Origin: Clavelina lepadiformis
Taxonomy: Eukaryota > Chordata > Ascidiacea > Aplousobranchia > Clavelinidae
Direction of reading: 5' to 3'
NCBI RefSeq assembly: GCF_947623445.1
Contig: NC_135240.1
Coordinates: 22,072,001-22,136,000 of the forward strand
DNA length: 64,000 nt
Within the stretch, counting starts at the first letter, position 1. Every line of letters starts with the position of its first letter. A program made the position numbers and the translations under genes. Of this stretch, positions 1-48,736 are shown piece by piece. Under the pieces are notes generated by a model. The model was not told the origin of the DNA and searched no databases. It saw only the letters and a list, made by a program, of their open reading frames with translations.

Positions 1-696
1 TGCAAAATACTCGAAAAACTACACGTCGTAGAACAACCGGGTTTTCACCAGTTAAAAGAAAAAATCTTTGGCTTTTGGTTCGTTGCGTGATACTAATGTC
101 CTGAAACGCACACATTGTGCAAAATGATAAACTTTACACCTATCCCAGTTGTTAAATTTTTTTGACTTGCCCCGCTCCCGCTGTTTTGCATAACGTGCAT
201 ATTACGCGCGTCATAAAATCTGGGACAGAAAAACGAGAAAAGAGACAATCGCGAGGGGGCGGCATACTATTGCCAACCATGAGAGAAAAAACTGCCTAAG
301 CCCTAAAGTATAAACTGCGATGAATAGAAAAATTCCACCTCTTCTCTCGCGAAATCTCTCGTCAATTATACATTTTGACAGCCTGACCGAAATATCAATA
401 AGCGAATAAATAAAACTAGGTCAACATAGAAGGTAAGCGGTAAGCGGCATTTTGATATAGATATGTAAATATCTCACAATATACATAACCGAATTTTATC
501 AAAGTTGCAAAGTAGGATGACCCGTAAAGTTTTAAATGAATTAAAAAATCGTCAGCTTTTTTGATGAAGAAATCCCCCTTTTAAATCAACGAATTTTAAT
601 CATGGTGCAACGTTGTGACACACTTGGTCCAAGTAGGAACTTTGGTTTTATATAGCCCCGAACAATCATACCACATTATTTGTTTACACTTTACAG
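1..696. other. Upstream region or intron of the first gene
   Basis: AT-rich sequence without a convincing exon. It ends in a polypyrimidine/TTTACAG acceptor at about 687-696, directly before the open frame that starts at 697, so at least its right part is an intron. The 5' exons of that gene are either in this stretch and too short to recognise, or left of the window. Confidence 0.5.
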
Positions 697-1814
697 CGAC
701 CTACTCGAAAGAATCAAAGACGCCAAATTCAGAGAGCTAAAAGTACACTTCGTAAGGTTGAAGAAAAGAGAGTATTAGCAAAAAAGTCCAAAAAATCGGC
801 AACGACTACTAACGAAGATTACGAAACATCGTCATGGGACGAGACAAGTCTCCACGAATATAATTCGCTTGAATCTCCAACCATACAGCTTTTCTCAACT
901 TCATTATTGCAAGACAGTGAGAAAAACGTGAATGTTGATATCAGTAGAGCAGCGACGCTGTGTAATGACCACTCGCAGTCTGCTACAATAGACGATCGTG
1001 TGACCGTCAGTCGCGAGGATTGCGTCACCACTCCAAACCGAACCAACAAGGTGGAGCGACAACGCGTGTCAGACAGAGATGGAAAGTCCCCCGCTTTTCC
1101 CAAATTTAGCAGACGCAGGAAAGCAAGGTGCTTGCAGCAAAGCCCGCCCAAAACCGCTCCACTACACGTCGTAAATATCGATTTGGCTGACTCCTCACAG
1201 ATTAATACAAAAGAAACGTCCTCTCCATTTAATGCAGGTGTACTTATGGTCAAATCTTAATTTTTTTCTTATAAAATCTGTTTACATTGTTCGTAAGTGT
1301 AAGTCATTATTTGCCCAACTAAACTCCCTAGTCTAGTGTAATTGTGGCCAATTAATATGGTGTGTACTGCTTAATACCCCCTATTAATTTATGGAAATTT
1401 TATCCATGTCGCCCCTACTGTGGTCGTGTCAGCTCATGGGTTAATTCGTTTAAGTCACAGTTTTCTCAAAGACAATGCTGGGTGTTCAAGTGACAAGAGT
1501 TGACTTGACAGGGGTTGAAGTGACCGGAAATGGTTACACCAGTGATGAATTAACTATACTCGCCATATTTTTAGTGCCTGTAAAATCTGCTGAGGCGTGT
1601 GATTTCATTCAAAATTTACTGGACATCAGTTTTGGCAAAGAGGCAACCTCTGACCAAGAAACGGTAAAAACGCATCTTTTTGATTTAACGTTGAAATACT
1701 TTTTATTTTGAAGTTCTCTACGCTTTTTATTTTCAGGATACCGCTACGGACACACCATGCACCAGTTTGGTAGATCAGAAACCAGACTTGCTTTGCGATT
1801 TATTTGAACCTTAA
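697..1814 (+). CDS. 3' part of an unrecognised, charged nuclear-type protein
   Basis: Three exons join in phase: 697-1237, 1461-1663 and 1737-1814 (TAA at 1812-1814), with GTGTAC and GTAAAA donors and CACAG and TTCAG acceptors. The frame is open from the acceptor at 696 with no start codon, so the N-terminus is missing. About 274 residues are visible. The first part is basic (RPTRKNQRRQIQRAK, then Lys/Arg- and Ser/Thr-rich low complexity). A more ordered stretch follows in exon 2 (LTGVEVTGNGYTSDELTIL) with a hydrophobic/acidic C-terminus ending LLCDLFEP. No family was recognised. The basic, disordered composition suggests a nuclear or chromatin/cytoskeletal role, but that is only inference. 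Candidate polyadenylation signals (AATAAA) cluster at 2353-2409. The neighbouring CYLD gene is convergent. Confidence 0.6.
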
Positions 1815-15000: not shown

Positions 15001-15185
15001 CCAATTTATAATTGGCAACATCCACGAGGTGGGAGCAGAGAGTAGACTAAACAAAAGTCGCTTGCATTTTTTTTATTTTGAAGGGACCACTCTGATTCAT
15101 TTTTTCACAATTGCTGAAGTAGCGGTAGATGTGTCTGGAAGCTCAGTCGTGCGCAGGTAATCAGTGCAGCGCGTATGAGAGGAAA

Positions 15186-18100
15186 ATGACAAGAACAAAG
15201 CAAACGAAGCCAAGACATATTGTGGAAAATGACAAGACAACTGAAGGTAAGAGCGATTCAAATTTTTATTATTTCTTTATAATAATTGGTAATTTTATAA
15301 CTAGTTTAATAATGTTACTAAATCTGCGTTAGCGTATATTTAGTATTTGACATGAGCTGAGTGACGTTGATGAGCGTTGATTTTTAAATCGTGGAAGATA
15401 TCTTTATTTGCATTTGATCATTTGAAGTGTTTGACAAGTATATTGCTATCCTATTTATTGCGCATGCTTCAAGGCATGATTTGTCTCCGTCTGTCGAGTA
15501 TATTTAGGATCGAGTTGATCTACGCGCATGATGGAAAGGGTTGGGGAAATTCTTCCTAATATGTACCGGATGGTAAATATTTGAAAAATGATTATTTTGA
15601 TCTTTTGCATACGTTGAAGGAGAAATGTATGCTCAGTCTTTTTCTGCTAACTATCCACTTAAAAGTTTACTCAAAATTTTCTCGTCATTTCGTTCACAAA
15701 GAACGACCAGTCTTGTTTACGCTCGTCAGATGTTAACAATCCTCCTTTTCCACGAAACAACCTCCTACTCAGTTATTCTATAGAACAGGATGTTTCACCT
15801 CTGTAATTAGGGACGTTGGTCAGTGACTGGTGCGTAATCATTGTTTTTTTGTAAATAATATTGTTGGTCCAGTGATCTAATATATGAAATAAATGGCTCA
15901 TGGCAGCTCATTTTAAAATCATGTTTTTTCATTGTCGTATTTTTTAACAAACTATAATGTGGCCTATACTGTGATGCAGATGTAACATTTTCGAAAATTC
16001 CCAACCATGAGGTATTCTTTGTACTGCACAGTACAACGCTGCAATTGTTGTATTAGAAACAGTTGTTACTTAACTATCTTTGCAACAAAACAAGGTTTAG
16101 CTCGATGGGCGACCGAACATCAGTACATTAATTGCATCCTAATCATTGTTTTCCACTTTTAACTCCACTTGACTAGCCTATGTTTGTGGTCCAATCGTCG
16201 CCGGACTTCTGTGAATCTTCCATGACGTCATGGTTTTGCGTGAAAATTACAAGTTTTAGATTCACTGAAGCGGTCTTGAATTGCATGTGGTAACTTTATC
16301 ATGGCAAAACAACGAAAAACAAAGTATTCTGTCTGGTAGATTTGCACACATTTTCCAATGATGTAAACTGTTTTAGCATTAGCCCTAAATTGTTCTTTAG
16401 TCTTTTTATGGCTATTCAATTATACCTTGGGTATCGGGCGTGGGCAGACGATTAGGGTAGGGTATTTCAACTTTTTCGATTATTTTTCCCAGGGCTTATA
16501 AGGTAATAGACTGGATCATACGAGACGATGCCAATTAAGCTGTATTTAATTGTGGCCTTTACGATATTCGAAGAACCAAGTTTGTCGGACTTGCGCTGTA
16601 GCCATTTTTGCACGTTTCATAACGCGCACGGACAAGTTGGTTTATCGTTTTTAACCACATGTGCTGTTGAATTTGTGGGATTCCAGATTTTTTTGTTTCA
16701 CACATAAAATTTTTTTATTACGTCCCAATAGCTTGACTCCATGCCATCATCGTCGATGTATCTTTCTCATAAACGCTACGTTTTAAATAACACCCAACAC
16801 GAGAAAATATTTCTATGTTTACACACTGGGGTTACTTCCCTAACGCTAGCTAAGCAATAAAACTCTTGTGGCTGTGGTTGTACCTTTGTAAATAAATCCG
16901 ACTAGTTACGTGTGCTTAGCTGTACATATGCGTGTTTCCTAACTCTGCGAGCCGGACGCATATTGCTTTGATTGATATAATGTGAGCCGTTTTGGTTAAA
17001 TAGCGCGAATACCCCTACGATCTACGACGTGTTGCCAGTTTATAAAACATACAAATATTTACTGAACTCAATAGACAAGCCGTGTGTTGCGAAGTATTTT
17101 TTCCCGTCGTTTATTCCATAGAAACGTTGTTTTTGCACAAAATACTACGTCGCCGCTGAATATCATTGCTTTGCTAGTTCAAAAGAGATTAAGCAACGGG
17201 TACAGACTTTTGGTGTAAGTACTCCTGTTAACACTGTTGTTGGTGTTTACTTGTAAACTCATCGCTGAGGTCATGGGTTGAACTCGGCACAGTACATGAC
17301 ACGGTAGCGCTTAGCACAACTGTTTGACAACAGAATTTGTCGCCGGGCGGCACTTTGCAATTAACATGTAAAGGACACATTATACATAGAGGGGCCTAAG
17401 GTAGTTTTTTGCTCATTGCGTTACCTTAATGTAAATTTGTTTGCACTTTCAACTCTATTTGGTGTGGAATATTGGGTAGAAAATTTTTAGGCAAATTAAC
17501 AACTCGTTCAAAACTGCAATAAAGAATTGGCAAAAATCTGTTTGACAAACTTTTAAAAACATGGACCCGTGACTTTGCGGATGCCTATAAATCAGCAATT
17601 TAACTTTAATGATTCACGGCTTTACAATAGTCATCCGAAACAAAACGACCGGGATTTCGGTTTATTATTGCTATAACCGTACTTTGAACAGACTTGCGTT
17701 AATTTGTGCTGCTCGATACGCTAACGGCGGAATTCACAGTTATAGAGATTGCCCAGTGCACAAGTTACGTTAATATGCGGCACACCTTTGGATGCCGAGG
17801 TCGCTTGGCTTGATAGTGCAAAAGACTATTTTTATCTGATTCACCGGGTTGCAATCAGTCATGAATGCTGTCCTTGCTGCTGATAATTAATGCAACGGCA
17901 CTGATTCATAGCTTTTATAGCTGCTACACGTATCATGAACATATTTGGCTTTTTGGTTTGTAGTATACATTAGCCTACAAGCACACTGACATATCTATTC
18001 GTAATTACATTGCTCAATTACTCAATATATACTGTCAATAGCTACAAGTTATCCTAAAAGTTGTTTAAAGGTTTCACCGACCTGAAAAATAATGACATTT

Positions 18101-21100: not shown

Positions 21101-24100
21101 TTATATATGCGTGTTAATGGAATGCAACCGTAATGAAAGAAGCCGACCAAAAACAATTTACACTTTACAGTTACTCGTATTAAGTTGCAATGTATCGATA
21201 ATCGAGACCGTTTACTCATCATTTTAATTGCTACCGGTTGCTAAGCTTGTATTTGGAAGTGCTATGCCCATATCGAAGAGAATTTTGGCAAACAGCATTT
21301 TACATGATGTAACAACTTATAAATGCTAAAGGTGTGGTGTGGTGATTGCTAACGCTTGAAATTACTGCGACTGATTCCAGACTGACAGTAATTAATTAGA
21401 TGGTAATTGCTCTTATTATACATAGTTCTCTGTCATTTGGGCCGGGCAGCCAAATGTATCAAGCGCTACGTAATTCTACAAAAATAGTTTTCTCCAGAAA
21501 CACTTAAACGGTCAGTAAGCCCGCCAATTTTCATCCTAAATGCACAGCAAACTAAAACCAGTTCGGCGACCAACCTAAGAGAAAGGTATAGGCTTTACTA
21601 AATGCTTTTTTCTTTCAGGAGGACTTTCACCCACAAGTACTTCTTCGTACGATGATGAGTGCAATTTAAGCGACGATGAAATGCAAGAAATCCCTAATTT
21701 CCCAGAAGCAGTAAGTACAAGAAGTATTGTTCAGTCTCTGGCTGCTGAAACCAACTGTAATTGACCAATGTTGCAGCTTAATCACTACACGTTAAGGTTA
21801 AATCTATTATAATTAGGCTATTATTTTTCATCAATATTAACCTATAACTTATGTGTTAACATGCTTTAATCGAAAAAGCTTAAAAAAGTTTTGCCTTTTT
21901 GTACGATTGAAAATGATATACCGATCTAATTGTCCAGGTATCTACCTCCAGCAAATGCTGTCAATCAAATGGGGAAGAATTTCCAAAAAATTTGGAAGAG
22001 AATCCCAAAGAGGCGTTCATAACCGAAAGGCCCGAGCAAGGTAGGTCGATTGATTATGGTGGAGTGACCAGCTAATATTGATTTAGTCATGTTTTATACT
22101 CGTCCTTAGACTATGAAAGTCTTTGAGCGCGTAATCTTAAAAATGGGTGGACCCCGCCTTTCTGATGTATAAGCACGAATCGTTTGTTCAACCGCTTTAG
22201 TGGTCACTAGTTATTTGTTTACCTCATGATTGCCTTTCTGCCTCCTTTGTCTTGTTTGTTAGCCATCCAGGCAACGGCTGTAATAATTTACTTTCGTGGC
22301 TTTATTTAGGCGAACATTTTATGTCAGAAAAACTAATTCAGCCGCGGAAAAGTTCAACAGCAGAAGAAACGACCTTCAGGCCGCTATCTGCGTCCCCATC
22401 GTGTACTAACACACAGCGCTTTAGTTTTAGTCCAGAAACGGTACACGAACAGACAACATCAACTTTATATGAAAAAAGCCATGGCAATGCCCGACATCAG
22501 TTTTGTTCAAAGTTCAACAGAACAGCGGAAGATACCCTAAACAAGAACTCTGAAAATGACGAAATCTCTTTCGAACAATTCGGCAAAGCGTCACTTAGCC
22601 CCGACGACGTTTTACTGCATAGTGGCAATCTTCACAAACACCCTGAAAACAAAATCGCTCCAAATGCTGGAGTTAATTATCGTGAAGAAGATGTTGCCTT
22701 GCCGAAAAATGGTTATTTCAACAATACCCAATCACTTGAAAGACCATTGAAGCAGAATCCTGAACGTTTTCAGAGCGATCCCAAACAGTATCAAATGTTT
22801 TCCTCGGCCTCCTATTACCTTAATACATTAAAAGAAATGATGCAGAATAACCAAGCTAATAAGAATGGGACAAACCAGGTCGATATTTGGAGTTTGTGGG
22901 CAAATGCCGCTCGCAATGTCCCGCACAAAATACCAGAAAATTACGAAAAATCTCATCTCTTTCAAAGATATTTCGCACAATTAGCCGAGAGGTGGAACTC
23001 TTTCATGGCAAGACAGTTTGCTAAACCCGAATATATGAGATACCATCCATACTTACAGGCCGACAGACATACCCAAGCTAGTTCCAAGCAGTCCCCCATT
23101 CCAGAAAACTCGCTAAGATCCGACCCCAAAGAAACAAACTACGGTGATAATCACAACACGGTCAATTGTTTGAGTCCCGAAGCTGGTTCAGTATCATCTC
23201 CGTTGTCTGATGTTGCTATTTCTCAAGAATTACTCAAATCAAGTGAAGTCTTATCACCAAAGGAAGTTAACCAAAGTACGGAAACTGACAAACGCGATGA
23301 GGAAAAGTGTGAAAATGCAGATCTCTCACCGCTTACTGAAAATGGTGTGCCAATAGTTTCAAAGACAAGCAACAGTTTTTCATTTTCAAATAGTCTTTCT
23401 TCTCCCAATGTAGTTGCACAAACAGACAGTCCTCGGCCAAACGAACCACCAACTCTATTTTTATCGACTTCTCCTCAAGGTGATAGTCACCCCAATCTTG
23501 CAGATCAAATTAATTCTCTTGTGCCATATCATCCATGGCAGTCTCCAAACTGGATGGGCTTCAGTGCTACCAAATCCGATAATTCTCCCAGCTATCGTTC
23601 ACTGCCTCATACACCAACCGAAAAAACAACTTCTTGCAACCAATTCCTGTTGGATACCAAAACAGCCCAGTTCGATCCTGACATTCTAAGAAGAAAATCT
23701 GTTCCCGCTGAAAATATCAAATCTCCTGCCATTTCCACATCCATTTCTACTCCCAGTATAAACAGTAACTCCCCCTCCCCCGTTAGCATCCCTCCACAAA
23801 GGAAATTCTCGGCTCCTGTTGGTCCAATGAAAAACTCTGACATCTTTAACCAGCGTGCCTTAGAAGACATGCGAAGGCACTACAGCGTCGTTCATCCACC
23901 TTTTGTACCTCAGTGGTTCGGAAGTGCGTTTCCAGCGAATCAAATCGCTTCTCCCACATTTGCTGGAATCCATTCCCCTCTTACTTCGAACGCAAGCAAG
24001 CCACAGATGTTTTTTCCATCACGGATGCCCATCATCCCTCCTAACGGGTTTCCATTGGGGGGCGCTTTATCCCCTCAATCCGCTCAGACTTACTCTACGG

Positions 24101-27100
24101 CTCAGCACCCTTACAAGTCTGATTTAACAAGCCAGCTCCAGTCCACCAGCGGTAAGCTTTCCCGACGGACAAGAACCCGCGGTCCTCCCATCGACAGCGT
24201 CCACGCCGCAATAGTTCGCGAAGCTAAAGAGCAATTCAAGGGACTGGATCCAGAAAACATGTACATCCAGTGCCCGATATGTCAGAAGAGGATCAAACGT
24301 CTTTATCACTTCCAGCGACACATGCGAATCCACACCGGCGAGAAAACTCACCAGTGCCCGTGCTGTCAGTACAAGTCGGTTCGCAAAGACAACTTGAAAA
24401 GTCACATGAAGACTCACGAGAAACACACTTTGGAAAACAGCAGAAAAGGCAGCAAGGCCAACTTTCAGCAAAGCAGGAAAGCTGAAAGCTTAAACGCAGG
24501 GAGCCCGAATAATGAAGTAAGAGAATCGAGCATAAACGTCCCAGTAAAACCAGCTGACCACCTCACTGATGTTCCTTTGGTGGCAGGTGAGTTAAATAAA
24601 ACAAGTAGGTCGTCCCCCGGCGCAATTTCAAACCAGCCTTCTAATTCGGCGCGCTGGAAAGAAATACCTGATTGGAGGTTTCGTTTCAATCAGCCGTTTT
24701 ACAATCCATACGGAATTCCACCGTTTTCGACCAATTTTAAAACCGATTTCACCCAAACAACCATTCTAAATGGAGACGTTGGTAACAAGCTAAAGCGCGG
24801 ACCAGATGCTGCAAACGTTACTGCTTCATCACCTAATTTTCTACGGTCACAACAAACCAGCGCGTTTGACCAGAAAGCAGAAAATGGTGGCCGGGTCACG
24901 GAACGCCGGACTCAGATTAATGCGTCGGCCGAAGACGGGTTAGCCACAAGCCGGCGAATTTCTGCAACTTCCCCGACCATCTTAACAAGCAAAGCTCAGA
25001 CTGATAACAAAGCGCTTGGCAACGACGGCAACCTTCGAGACTTGCTTTCCAATTCAAACCAAGAGAGAGCAGCAAAACGGCCAAAAATCATGTTGAACGG
25101 ACGAAGTCTTGACACGGAGGAGCCTCCCCTAACCAATACAAACCAAAACAACAACAACAACAACAACAGAAGGAAAAGTTCCATTTTCCCGGAAAGCGCT
25201 TTTAGGCCGATTTCTACTTTCCAGACTGAGCAACGGGATGTGCGATCGACAGTTTATCCTATCCCATTTCTCCCGATATATTCAAGCAATCAGTGTCTTC
25301 CGAAAGCTGATCAAACTGATCAGTACAAATTAACCGAAAAAGGAGCGATCCCTAGTAACCAGTCAATAGAAAATAGGTCAGTTCTTACTCATAATTTTAA
25401 CATTTAAAGTACGTCAGGAAATAATTCCATTGATAACAAACTGTAGAAAACTTATAAATCAGTGCTGCTATGTCGTGTACGCCCATATGTTTATCTTCGG
25501 CTAAACTAGTAATTAGCGTCCGTGGGGCCAAAATCATCAGTTGGACTTTTTTCGTTGACACAAGTGTTCTGTTTACAGAAAATTCGAATCCGGAGCTTCC
25601 GCCACCCTGGCAGGTCTGGCAGCCGCAGCGGCAGCGGCCACCATGAAGTCTCAAAATGGTTCCAAGTGCCCTGACGGTAAAGATAATTTTATACGGTCTT
25701 TGTAGTCCGTTTTAATCAAAACGTTCATATAATTTAGTCACGTTCTTATAGACCTTCAGGTTCAGGTACCTACTAATTTTCAGCATATTTTTGAGCCATT
25801 GGCAACCTAAAACCCTTCGTAATTGTTATTTTCGGACCGTACGCTTGGTCAAAATCCCACAAAAATATACTTATGTGCCCCGGGACAAGATTATCAATGT
25901 ACAAAAATCGCCGAAACGAAGCACATATGTCTTTACTTTATTTGGCTGACATTAATTTTCCTTTTGTCCAACCAGTTGGTAAAACTCATGTTGTTAAACG
26001 CTTTGAGTTTTACGCCTAATTTTAGGGTTTATGAGTTCTATAGATGACAAAATACTTTGGTGGTTATACTGGTTGACGTTGCGGCTTTGTATGATTTGTT
26101 TATTTCAAAACTTCCTGTTTTATTTGCATTGGCGCACATGACTCATAATAAGCTTTCCGTTACGAATCAGCCAGTGAACTCACCCAATCCTCTTATATAT
26201 CTCTCGGGTGTGTAACTCCTTTTTCCCGGTTTGATCCTTTTGTTGTTTTTAAAACAATTCTTGTTGTTTAATATGAACCCAGAATTGTTTACCGAAATTA
26301 GCCAATTTCCAGGAAACGATTTGGTTGTAAGTTGGCGTTCAGAATAACGATCAAACATTTCCACCTTATTTAACCTTTACATTTCAAAAATTTAAATCTT
26401 TAGGTGGTTGATTTAACGTTTCAATTGCTTAACTATTTTCTCGAGAAAAATGCTAGGTCCCTTGTCGTAGAACAAGATTTCTTAATCTGATCGCAACGTG
26501 TAATTTTGGGAAAACTGTTTCATGTATATCGCCACGCGTTTTCCTGTATTGCGCTTAGACCTTTGTGAAAAACAAATTTGATTACCGGCTACAGGCGACG
26601 GCACATGAAAACTCCCAATCAGCATTTGAATGGTGAAAAGGAGCATTTTATGTGATCTGCAGAAACAAAGGCACCACAGCATCACCCACTTGACTTTGCG
26701 ACCGCATCTACCAGTCTCCAGGTCGGACTCATAAGGCTGAGAATGCGCGTAGTTGGTAATTTACATCTCACAAACCTTGCGACTTTCAAACATTAAATAA
26801 TAGCTTCTAATTGACGAATACATTGAGAAACAGCGACACCCGATCATTGGCCAACACACCGGGTCCTAATTAATACCATAATGACAAGAGTTGTCAATTT
26901 ACGCAAGCGCAGCGCTTGTTCTTGGAGGTTTCAGTCGCTTGACCACCAATGCAATCCGCTTATATGCTCTTGAAGCCATCCATATACTTGTAAATAAACT
27001 TCAGCTTATTTCAAGAACAAAGCTTAATGAAAAAAATGTCCCTTTTAATCTTAGCTTCTTGCAGTGAAATCAAAGTCGCCATTATTTTGCTTCGGGGATG

Positions 27101-28760
27101 AATTAAACGTCAGCGTTTATTTAAGTAACCGAAATCTGCGTAGCTAAATGTTACCAAATGAGTTATCGTTAGAAGTACAGGAATTATTAAGATAATGATA
27201 TCGTTGGAGTGTCTATATACACATGATACCCATCAACGGTTTAATGTCAAATCTCTCAATTACAGATACTTTGAGTTCCAATCCGAGCGAAAAAAACAAC
27301 TCGTGTACAGTTGCAGTTCCTTTCGCATCTCATCATGGAACCAAACCATCCGCCCTTCACCGCTCAGCTAAGGCTCTTAACGCTGACGTCAACAACACCG
27401 CAAGACGTAGCTTGAGTTCAGTTCCTTCATTATCGAGGAGCGATCTCAACGAGATTCCGTGCCAGCTTGGCTCTGATGACGACGTTAAATCGCCTGATGA
27501 CATTCCAAAGGAGAAGATTAGCAATGAATACACTGTAAATGGCGACTGCGACGTGGCAATTAAAGCCGAATCACGGCCAACTGCAACGAACCCTCAGCTT
27601 GAAGCGGACAAACCTTCCCCGTTAAAGAATGACAATGAAACGTTTCCAAGTACCAGCGACGCAAACAAGCAGAAGAGCCAGCCTTGCAAGCGTAAGCCTC
27701 GTGTTTAGTGAATTAAATAAATATGCTGTAACCATCCAATTAGTCGAAATAGTATACTTTGCTAATAGTCTCCGTATTATGTTCAAAGTATATTTTGAAG
27801 TAACCACTTCGAAATTTACAGGGACGGAAAACCAGAATGAAAACAGTAGTGTTGAAGCGAAAGGTTCATCTTGCCGACTCTGCTCGTTCCAATCTACATC
27901 GACCATCGAACTTCACTCTCACGTGGCTGCCATGCATAAGCAGGATGGCTTTTACAAGTGCGTTATCTATCGCTACATTTTAGCGAATTAAATCGAATAA
28001 ATCATTATTTTATCAACACATCGCAACGTCTTGCACTTTCTGTTATTATACACATGTTAGTCATTGTAAAATGACACCCTTGGTGTGTTAAACTAATCGA
28101 TGTTATTTTTGAAAAACTAGGTGTGACGAGTGCAGTTATCTTGGCAAGAACTTGAGCAAGTTGGTCGAGCACATCAGGATACATACCGGTGAACGCCCGT
28201 TCAAGTGCGATCAGTGCAGTTACGCTGCTAAGAGAAAGGATAATTTAGCCCAACACAAAGCTGTCAGACACGACAAGAGAAAAACAAAGTCGAATAGTCT
28301 TTACACTGTGCTTGATCAGTTTACGTGTGAAACGGCCACAGTTGCAAGAAAAAGGAATTCGGTTGCTGGAACTCCTCATCACTTTCCTGACGAGAAGATG
28401 GAAGCATCCGAAACTAGCCTTCCTCCTCCGGCTTTCGAACGATTCTCCTTGTTCCCGAATTTACGGTATCTTCCGAGCATGGACGTGGGATCGGACTTGA
28501 ACTTCAATCGGGAGTTCGTGAAGGAAAAAAGTCCGACGTCCACCGCGTCCCCAACAATGCAGTTCTCCACATTTCATCCTGTTCAGACATTTCCGGCATC
28601 CGTGTTCCAGTACCCCTATTACCCTCCTCATCCAATCATTCCTCCCATGGAGCTGCATCCAGGGATCGGCGGAAGTGCAGTCAAGGCGGTCGGCGACCGG
28701 CTGGCAAATCCCGGGACATACTCCGCGGTCAAAGTCCGTGCCGCCCTTATTTCTCCTTAA
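15186..28760 (+). CDS. C2H2 zinc-finger transcription factor with N-terminal NuRD/H3-like motif
   Basis: Eight exons join in phase: 15186-15246, 21619-21710, 21938-22040, 22271-25376, 25579-25676, 27266-27691, 27822-27957, 28121-28760. The total is 4662 nt, 1553 aa. The N-terminus MTRTKQTKPRHI matches the RRKQxKP motif class with which SALL, FOG, BCL11 and ZNF827 recruit RBBP4/NuRD. As in SALL and BCL11 genes, it sits in a short first exon before a long intron. Exon 4 is long and disordered (Ser/Pro/Gln-rich). It ends with a tight C2H2 pair at about 753-805 (CPICQKRIKRLYHFQRHMRIH, HQCPCCQYKSVRKDNLKSH) and an Asn run at 25138-25167. Exon 5 has a seven-Ala run. Three more fingers lie at about 1313-1400, the last with KRKDNLAQH. 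Fingers 1-2 look most like ZNF827, from memory only. Start: ATG 15186 puts the motif at the N-terminus; an in-frame ATG at 15129 would add 19 residues. Exon 4 can also read through its donor to TAA at 25405, giving a two-finger isoform. Confidence 0.85.
15247..21618 (+). other. 6.4 kb first intron of the zinc-finger gene
   Basis: Bounded by AAG|GTAAGAGC and TCTTTCAG. No exon-like frame was found inside. It contains one hAT element (20615-21027). Long first introns in developmental regulators often hold enhancers; nothing in the sequence shown proves it here. Confidence 0.7.
20615..21027. mobile_element. Non-autonomous hAT element inside an intron
   Basis: A 413 bp element with ends CAGACGTGGGCAAAC and TTTTCCCACCCCTG. 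It has the subterminal GCGGCTCGCGAGCCGC palindrome seen in many animal hAT MITEs. A perfect 8 bp target duplication CCTTAGAT lies at 20607-20614 and 21028-21035. There is no coding frame. Confidence 0.93.
25677..27265 (+). other. Intron 5 of the zinc-finger gene
   Basis: A 1.6 kb intron between GACG|GTAAAG and CAATTACAG. No repeat or exon-like frame was recognised. Confidence 0.7.
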
Positions 28761-46683: not shown

Positions 46684-48099
46684 TTAGGCAATGGGATGTT
46701 GGGTAGCATACGAAATTAGCTTATACGAATTTTGAGGGTTCAGTAGTTCAGGACATTTTTTGCGTCCTCCTAACAATTGGATTTTTGTCACACCGAGTCC
46801 GAGACAAAGTGCAAAATGATGCGGATTTCCATCATAAAGTTGCAATAAGACTAGCGCGTCTTCCCCGTTTTTATGATACTTGAGTCGTCCCAAAGCGTCC
46901 AATGTAAATAAAAGTTCGTCGTTTTCCCGAATTCGTTTTATTTCGTTCGAAAATTCCCAATCTCCTACAGGAAGACCCATGACATGGCATGAAACTCTGG
47001 TACACGGTAATGCATTTGAAGTGTTAAGATCGCTCTTTTTGTCATCAAAGGAACTGACCGCCACGTAAAGAAGACTTCTTCTCCGATCAGCTTCAGCCAC
47101 CTTAACTCGAATGCAATCGCCAACTTCAATCGGTTGTTCCAGAACTGCCATACCGTCTTCAAGCGAACGACAAAGCTCGGTGTATTCAGCCATACTTTGG
47201 TATCCGTAAAAATCACAGCTCAGCTGCACCAACTTCCCTTTCTCCTTATCATGAAATGATAACGGAAACCACGAGGTACATGTCGTCATAACTGGTCTAT
47301 TCCGACTCATTGCCATGTGATCGGGACTGCTGCAATTTCGGACGTTACGTTTTGAATAGCCTGGGAGTTTCTTACACCGTTCGTTGCCGTTGTCGGTTGT
47401 GTTTATACTTCTCTTGTTAAGCAATTTTCTTGCATTAGATGTTGGGGCAGTTTTCGCTGGCTCTGGCAGATACAAGGTAACTTGAGTAGCCTTTTTACAT
47501 TGAGATTGTAAATATAAATCTTGTTCAACAGGTTTTAAGTGTACATTGTGACCATCATCTAGGTTTTCTTCTTGAAATTTGCGTGGTATGGAGAGCAGTC
47601 CTTCTTTTATATTTCTGTGGTGTTTGAGACTCTTAGGTGTTTGTCTTTGCGATGGTTTTACTTCATCCTCACTTTCGTTGGAACGCCAAATCACTTTTTT
47701 GAAAAGTTTTTCTTTATCGTACTTAGAGTTTGTTGTCTTGCTGCTAGGTTTTTGGCAATTGTATTTTTTCCTGTGCACATTTTTTTGACGAACTCCTTCT
47801 AGCTTTTTTTTATTTCTGTTTACCACCTCTGCCAGTGTGGACAATTGCCCCTGTTCAATTAAATTTTCATGTTTTTCGTTCAACGTCGTTGCAATTACGA
47901 CACTGCGCGGAACACATACCCACCCACTTATTGTGGTGAAACGATGTTTTAAGCCGGACGGGATAGGCTGCCAGATTCTATCGCTTCTACGGGAGCTCTC
48001 ACTGTCATCTGCAGAAAGAACTTCGAAGAAATTCATTCGACTTGTTGGCCGCGGCGTATTTCTCCATTGCTTTCGTTCGGTTGAATCAACTACCACCAT
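46684..48099 (-). CDS. Intronless protein with a Neuralized-type (NHR) domain, no RING
   Basis: A single open frame of 471 aa. An in-frame TAG lies four codons upstream of ATG 48099, so the start is probably real. Residues 1-280 are basic, low complexity and rich in Lys, Arg and Asn, with no recognised domain. Residues about 290-455 fit a Neuralized homology repeat: PLSFHDKEKGKLVQLS at its start, EDGMAVLEQPIEVGDCIRVK, then LLYVAVSSFD, ELLFTLDALGRLKYHKNG, and a closing HFALCLGLGVTKIQLLGG. NHR domains of Neuralized proteins bind Notch ligands and usually precede a C3HC4 RING that makes them E3 ligases. Here the protein stops 15-20 residues after the repeat and no RING-coding frame follows. It could be an adaptor, a decoy, or a retrogene that lost the RING. 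The assignment rests on pattern similarity and is moderately certain. Confidence 0.6.
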   Translation of the reverse strand: MVVVDSTERKQWRNTPRPTSRMNFFEVLSADDSESSRRSDRIWQPIPSGLKHRFTTISGWVCVPRSVVIATTLNEKHENLIEQGQLSTLAEVVNRNKKKLEGVRQKNVHRKKYNCQKPSSKTTNSKYDKEKLFKKVIWRSNESEDEVKPSQRQTPKSLKHHRNIKEGLLSIPRKFQEENLDDGHNVHLKPVEQDLYLQSQCKKATQVTLYLPEPAKTAPTSNARKLLNKRSINTTDNGNERCKKLPGYSKRNVRNCSSPDHMAMSRNRPVMTTCTSWFPLSFHDKEKGKLVQLSCDFYGYQSMAEYTELCRSLEDGMAVLEQPIEVGDCIRVKVAEADRRRSLLYVAVSSFDDKKSDLNTSNALPCTRVSCHVMGLPVGDWEFSNEIKRIRENDELLFTLDALGRLKYHKNGEDALVLLQLYDGNPHHFALCLGLGVTKIQLLGGRKKCPELLNPQNSYKLISYATQHPIA

Positions 48100-48736
48100 A
48101 TCTTTTATCTACTATATTATTGACCAGAAGCAAAGTCCTAAGACTAACTTTTTATGCTTTATGAGAATACTTAGTAAATCTACAATTGAAAATTATAGTG
48201 AATTATAAAATAAATGGCTACTAAAAAGATAAAAAGAATAACAAAAATAAACCGTAGCATTTACTAAAGGAAAACCTTAGCGGAACAAACAACTCAACTG
48301 CCTCTTGTAATTGATAACTCTGTTGTTTAGGATAGTAAAAGTGCAACAAAGCGCTGAATGACGCTCTTTGCTGTACTTTCATTTAATTAGCTGGGTATCG
48401 TACGCTTCAGTGAGGTTGCTATTGTTACTGGTGCTTTGTAAATGATAGAAGTCTCTACGCTTGGCTCCAACGCCATCGAGTGATTCGTGTTAAACAGCAT
48501 AGTTATATGAAAGTGGACATTAGGCCTGCACTTAATACTAAGTTCTGTTATAACTAAAACTTCTTAATAGTTTCGCTCACAACTCTGATGACATGACGAG
48601 TAAATTATAAACAACTAAAAAAATGTATTGTTGAGCACACAAACTTAGTAGCCTATTGACCTTGCGAACGAAGAGTTTTGTAGTCAAAACTTCCTTAGAG
48701 ATTAAACTCGTGAGTGAGCCCAAAACACAAAGTGTT
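48100..48736. other. Spacer between NHR-domain gene and collectin gene
   Basis: About 640 bp between a gene start (48099) and the 3' end of the next gene on the same strand. It must contain the promoter or trans-splice acceptor for the NHR gene. AG dinucleotides precede ATG 48099 closely (ATATAG), but the pyrimidine tract is poor. Confidence 0.4.

Follow-up and report, generated by a model that had tools for sequence, protein, structure and literature searches.

On RBBP4, the second Arg of the NuRD-type motif is reported to contact E231 and the carbonyl of N277 and Lys5 to contact E126, N128 and E179, with the Gln and Pro of the motif in an uncharged groove (PMC11602157). In alanine scans of FOG-1 and ZNF512B, the Lys, the Pro and the second Arg are reported to be essential, while the first Arg could be dispensed with (PMC11602157). 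The second Arg occupies the RBBP4 channel in FOG-1 (PMC11602157) and in models of BCL11B (PMC6644156), and an R3S change in BCL11B is reported with a loss of about 8.7-fold (PMC6644156). The same groove takes the histone H3 tail, as a sequence-only reading of the present DNA had stated, H3 and FOG1 being described as binding in much the same way (PMC4139204). On fly Caf1, residues E235, D252 and E279 belong to the central pore where A1 and R2 of H3 lie, and E130 and E183 hold K4; the affinity is about 600 nM and falls beyond 70 uM when K4 is trimethylated (PMC10148413); Ala7 and Lys9 of H3 are reported to contribute as well (PMC6053351). For AEBP2, R380 occupies the channel and K382 the cleft, with a Kd of 7.6 uM (PMC6053351). 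The ordinary motif thus uses an adjacent R-K and AEBP2 an R-x-K; the residues named in these papers suggest an R-x-K for H3 too, and the residue lists of two of them would put H3 R2 in the same place as FOG-1 Arg4. The likeness of the BCL11B and FOG-1 motifs to the H3 tail has been published (PMC6644156), so that a common groove and a partial sequence resemblance between NuRD motifs and the H3 tail are both on record. Human ZNF827 has nine fingers, three central and six C-terminal, and is reported to recruit NuRD via an N-terminal RRK motif (PMC10933417).

The window analysed was the whole 64,000-nucleotide stretch of the Clavelina lepadiformis genome. Exon 1 (15186-15246, + strand) is an open, short first coding exon of 61 bases, of which 15186-15245 translate as MTRTKQTKPRHIVENDKTTE; base 15246 is G and is followed by the phase-1 donor GTAAGAG. 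Downstream exons were chosen by eye from splice signals and phase, and exons may be missing from the model; all lie on the same strand: exon 2 (21619-21710; phase 1 in, 0 out; GLSPTSTSSYDDECNLSDDEMQEIPNFPEA), exon 3 (21938-22040), exon 4 (22310-25376), exon 5 (25579-25676), exon 6 (27266-27691), exon 7 (27822-27957) and exon 8 (28121-28760), the last with the stop. These eight exons are stop-free, of compatible phases, and give 1,540 predicted residues with C2H2 fingers. Pfam, run on exon frames singly, matched two C2H2 stretches in exon 4 (the central fingers, about 24268-24420, zf-C2H2) and two in exon 8 (the C-terminal fingers, zf-C2H2 and zf-H2C2_5), which upholds the earlier assignment to a zinc-finger protein. 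A further finger in exon 7 was recognised from Cys/His spacing only, and that scan of the exon frames gave no zinc-finger model match to it. Elsewhere in the window, a 474-codon open frame runs from stop to stop at 46684-48108 (- strand), and a 207-codon open frame, Ser-rich and basic, lies at 637-1260 (+ strand).

The relationship of the gene was examined with an 88-residue query representing the human ZNF827 central fingers. Its best match in the genome was this locus (E 1.7e-16, 54% over 59 residues, query residues 4-62), by a narrow margin over a runner-up with E 1.2e-14 and 37% over query residues 2-85. The gene's own finger pair had no close second copy in the genome, the next match reaching E 5.5e-10 and 36%. 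The gene is probably this genome's ZNF827 relative, judging from its fingers. It is labelled only ‘ZNF827-like’ because of the narrow match margin and a finger number unlike the human three plus six. Outside the fingers, little is recognisable besides the motif residues R3, K5, Q6 and P9.

Those four residues are what exon 1 keeps of the N-terminal motif of SALL, FOG, BCL11 and ZNF827, and on this point the sequence-only reading was right. Residue 4 is Thr (codon ACA), so the motif of exon 1 is not a canonical member of the RRKQxxP class. The genome was searched with the pattern ATGNNNMGNMSNAARCARNNNNNNCCN (ATG-x-R-x4-K-Q-x-x-P, with x4 encoded by MSN), which gave 11 matches vs 5 in the control; a chance DNA match was rejected on this comparison as the origin of this NuRD-type start. 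By our arithmetic, the pattern is expected by chance about once per 84 Mb of strand, and with a chance of about 2 in 10,000 in the 15 kb of sense strand before the gene. Exon 1 was the only one of the 11 matches on its contig, C1, and a second motif-bearing first exon for the gene was rejected on this ground, within the starts that the pattern can detect.

Four other loci have ordinary MSRRKQ..P starts: L016 (MSRRKQSNPQQV), L018 (MSRRKQAKPQHM), L023 (MSRRKQEKPQQF) and L024 (MSRRKQLVPCKV). L016 looks FOG-like and L018 SALL-like in sequence, and the family names of L016, L018 and L023 are all tentative. When 10 kb from each of the four loci was inspected, single-finger frames were found near L024 only. 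At L023 and L024 the motif exon ends, by eye, at a candidate phase-1 donor, as exon 1 does, and position 7 of the motif varies among the four (S, A, E, L). The remaining six matches were L015, L017, L019, L020, L021 and L022; three of them (L015, L020, L022) read RRKQxxP, and these strings were provisionally taken as chance. Exon 1 very probably belongs to the zinc-finger gene and derives from this motif.

Its position at the mature N-terminus depends on the start codon. An in-frame ATG at 15129 would add 19 codons (15129-15185, + strand; MCLEAQSCAGNQCSAYERK), making the motif internal (residues 20-31) and the N-terminal registers inapplicable as described. In codon score this extension exceeds 94% of open intron windows, which speaks for coding, but only 20% of the gene's coding windows, whereas exon 1 exceeds 99% and 56%, respectively. 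Positions -3 and +4 of ATG 15129 are both T, whereas ATG 15186 has A at -3; the motifs of all four sibling loci begin at a Met whose -3 base is a purine. A short upstream ORF, MRGK-stop (15175-15189, + strand), with C at -3, overlaps ATG 15186 with its TGA.

The genome also has a spliced leader: ATTCTATTTGAATAAG, the exact Ciona spliced leader, occurs in 1,483 exact copies vs 0 in the reversed control. The leader supports the ascidian origin of the genome; of two other tunicate markers, COX1 and GH6, neither gave a match, and GH6, which matched in none of 14 controls either, was uninformative. In Ciona, at least 58% of expressed genes are reported to receive the leader (PMC7986045). Trans-splicing may therefore fix the 5' end of the mRNA, perhaps downstream of 15129, and this affects the choice of start codon. 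ATG context, and the usual position of the motif at Met1 in this family, favour a start at 15186, and translation from 15129 appears improbable. Among the matches listed, leader copies form a tandem array in 745-base steps on contig C6 (about 12,139,000-12,206,000, L051). In the piece of it examined, which has three copies, GTAAGT follows the leader in both copies with readable flanks; none of three scattered copies (L042-L044) has GT after the leader.

Removal of Met is expected before Thr. The new end would then be T-RTKQT-KPR, to be set against A-RTKQT-ARK of L010, an intact H3 in the same genome, which begins MARTKQTARKSTGGK. The two share five in-register identities, with Thr for Ala first, and given the start at 15186 and Met removal, H3 residues 2-6 are matched at the mature N-terminus. 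The likeness claimed in the sequence-only reading is thus confirmed against the genome's own H3. Its further claim, that exon 1 merges a NuRD motif with an H3 match, stands as to the five identities and is reduced in that R3, K5 and Q6 are NuRD residues anyway, which leaves only T4 and T7 as extra. As bare DNA, the string ATG-x-RTKQT alone is not beyond chance, with 12 places genome-wide vs 4 in the reversed control; besides exon 1 and a single intact H3, the 12 include five 5' pieces of H3 and five places that are unrelated. Thr accounts for one of six missense neighbours of AGA, one of seven of AGG and none for the four CGN codons. Because Thr lies one base from AGA and AGG and position 7 is variable, the chance of matching both T4 and T7, given loss of R4, is estimated at the order of 1%, and for these two residues chance was not rejected. 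The H3-specific part of the likeness is weaker than the NuRD part.

An origin of exon 1 as a captured H3 gene start was rejected: counted by eye, the stretch from ATG to codon 7 matches L002 at 16 of 21 bases, the six codons following ATG include five that differ, and over residues 8-12 exon 1 goes with the NuRD motif and not with H3. The start of Chlorella CENH3, an H3 variant, is MARTKQTKPSPSKRGA, with K-P after the shared five residues (PMC11005252), so K-P after RTKQT occurs even in an H3-family tail. Within one open-licence library, TRTKQT, RTKQTKP and MTRTKQ were found in one paper only, as part of this CENH3 antigen (PMC11005252). Exon 1 had no match up to E 10 among PDB chains of at least 20 residues, a set that excludes peptide ligands.

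Pieces of H3 occur elsewhere in the genome. Six places (L045-L050), five of them the same as L002, L009, L011, L012 and L013, have TATTGAAGAAAAATGGCACGA in common: an H3 leader plus the opening codons of H3, broken off after about 8-13 codons. Within the next 35 codons, four of the six have an ORF starting MAET(L/F)TYA(E/D)RVKRQW, which may be a retroelement ORF that has captured 5' ends of H3 mRNA, and at L049 an H4-start-like piece, MSGRGKEGKGL, was seen by eye just upstream. Only L010 combined an intact H3-type start with a full H3 in the genome-wide search with ATG-x-RTKQT; the assembly may have collapsed or skipped the replication-type H3 genes, or may lack them.

The RBBP4 of this genome was identified as L025 (PF12265), with exons in L033 and L034; a second PF12265 match is L026. 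The protein is identical to human RBBP4 at 374 of 411 residues, and it aligns from 1-411 to 1-411 with chain A of PDB 2xu7, so that RBBP4 residue numbering holds. All 14 pocket residues checked (41, 74, 75, 126, 128, 179, 181, 231, 248, 275, 277, 318, 319 and 321) are kept. Judged by these residues, the groove is unchanged and the change is on the ligand side.

The sequence-only reading had proposed binding to RBBP4 in either mode. This has to be narrowed: with Thr replacing the channel Arg that is reported essential in FOG-1 and ZNF512B, the FOG-1 register should be weakened or lost. TRTKQT has only an R-x-K, which leaves the H3 register available, while Q6 and P9 still suit the groove. The reading that we prefer, at a probability of roughly 45%, is therefore a variant NuRD motif that has moved away from R-R-K docking and into the R-x-K register of H3. 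Its parts are each somewhat firmer: the exon 1 tail probably binds RBBP4/7, and if it does, the H3 register would be the likely one. We infer the start at 15186, the binding, its register and the repression alike.

In this register shift, exon 1 would be the start of an ascidian ZNF827-like repressor with a variant NuRD-interaction motif. With Met off, its tail would cross the acidic top of RBBP4/7, with Lys5 placed in the E126/N128/E179 cleft. Arg3 would take the central channel in lieu of the missing Arg4, in the register of AEBP2 (R380/K382) and presumably of H3 (R2/K4), and Gln6 and Pro9 would fit into the uncharged groove like their counterparts in FOG-1 and ZNF512B. Through its fingers the protein would bring NuRD to its DNA targets, and its tail would be a competitor of the H3 tail at the RBBP4 site.

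The shift is supported by the retention of R3, K5, Q6 and P9 together with the eight phase-compatible exons and the four sibling starts, by the ZNF827 fingers matching best here and the intact RBBP4 pocket, and by the binding at the site of AEBP2, an R-x-K ligand, and of H3, presumably another. Against it count the reported need for Arg4 in FOG-1 and ZNF512B, and the reported dispensability of the first Arg in the same two proteins (though BCL11B R3S costs about 8.7-fold). Lys8 and Arg10 stand here for the H3 contributors Ala7 and Lys9, and the narrow ZNF827 margin and the finger number unlike human also weigh against the shift. So does the indirect placing of H3 R2 at the site of FOG-1 Arg4, for which PMC4139204 offers no more than the close similarity of H3 and FOG1 binding.

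The main rival to the register shift is decay by drift, in which R4T is drift, RBBP4 is bound weakly or no longer, and two Thr residues happen to produce the H3 likeness. The reportedly essential position 4 of FOG-1 and ZNF512B, the single base that separates Thr from AGA or AGG, and the placing of T7 at a variable position would all fit such a decaying motif. All of R3, K5, Q6 and P9 are nevertheless retained, and an R-x-K ligand, AEBP2, is known to bind the RBBP4 site; we regard decay as less likely than the shift.

A second alternative extends the likeness beyond RBBP4 to a true H3-tail mimic, whose free TRTKQT would be bound by PHD or WDR5 readers, or modified at Lys5 or Thr4 by H3 enzymes. 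That Lys5 is read or methylated like H3K4, as the sequence-only reading suggested, is a hypothesis. An acetylated N-terminal Thr, should it occur, would work against reading by PHD fingers and may block the mimic. The first residue is moreover Thr instead of Ala, and a NuRD motif with two Thr can explain the match, so that mimicry seems quite unlikely despite the in-register identity with H3 residues 2-6 and the reported precedent of UHRF1, whose PHD binds the N-terminal VRTK of PAF15 (PMC8034647).

A similarly slim chance attaches to a bolder form of the register shift, a lineage-specific swap from the FOG-1 to the H3 register by one Arg-to-Thr change that would make the protein a histone-tail mimic, after which methylation of Lys5 would switch RBBP4 docking off. 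If true, active-chromatin enzymes could turn a repressor off, as H3K4 methylation ends H3 docking. A natural R-T-K in place of R-R-K probes the interconversion of registers, the replaceability of the channel Arg and H3K4-type methylation control of a repressor; one synthetic peptide, TRTKQTKPRHIV, with RBBP4 would be enough to probe the register question.

Compared with the RRKQxxP proteins (FOG-1, SALL1, SALL4, BCL11A/B, ZNF827 and ZNF296), the exon 1 gene would have the same motif position at Met1, and it has the same R3, K5, Q6 and P9 and the same arrangement of a zinc-finger gene with a short first exon; it differs in having Thr for the second Arg, an Arg reported as essential. With ZNF827 in particular it shares a NuRD-type motif, putatively N-terminal, and central fingers that pick out this locus best, but its fingers number two plus three in the exon model vs three plus six in human, and it reads RTKQ vs RRKQ. 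The AEBP2 RRK-rich motif on RBBP4 has the same R-x-K spacing, with the AEBP2 Arg in the channel and Lys in the cleft, whereas it is an internal motif of a PRC2 subunit, and no QxxP part is reported for the traced AEBP2 peptide. The H3 tail on RBBP4/Caf1 (PDB 2YBA) has the R-x-K spacing and the in-register RTKQT, but Thr stands here for Ala1 and Lys-Pro-Arg for Ala-Arg-Lys, and the exon 1 gene is not a histone. The N-terminus of PAF15 (VRTK, bound by the UHRF1 PHD) is likewise a non-histone N-terminus reading xRTK; it belongs to another protein with another reader, and the stretch shared with H3 is longer in the exon 1 gene.
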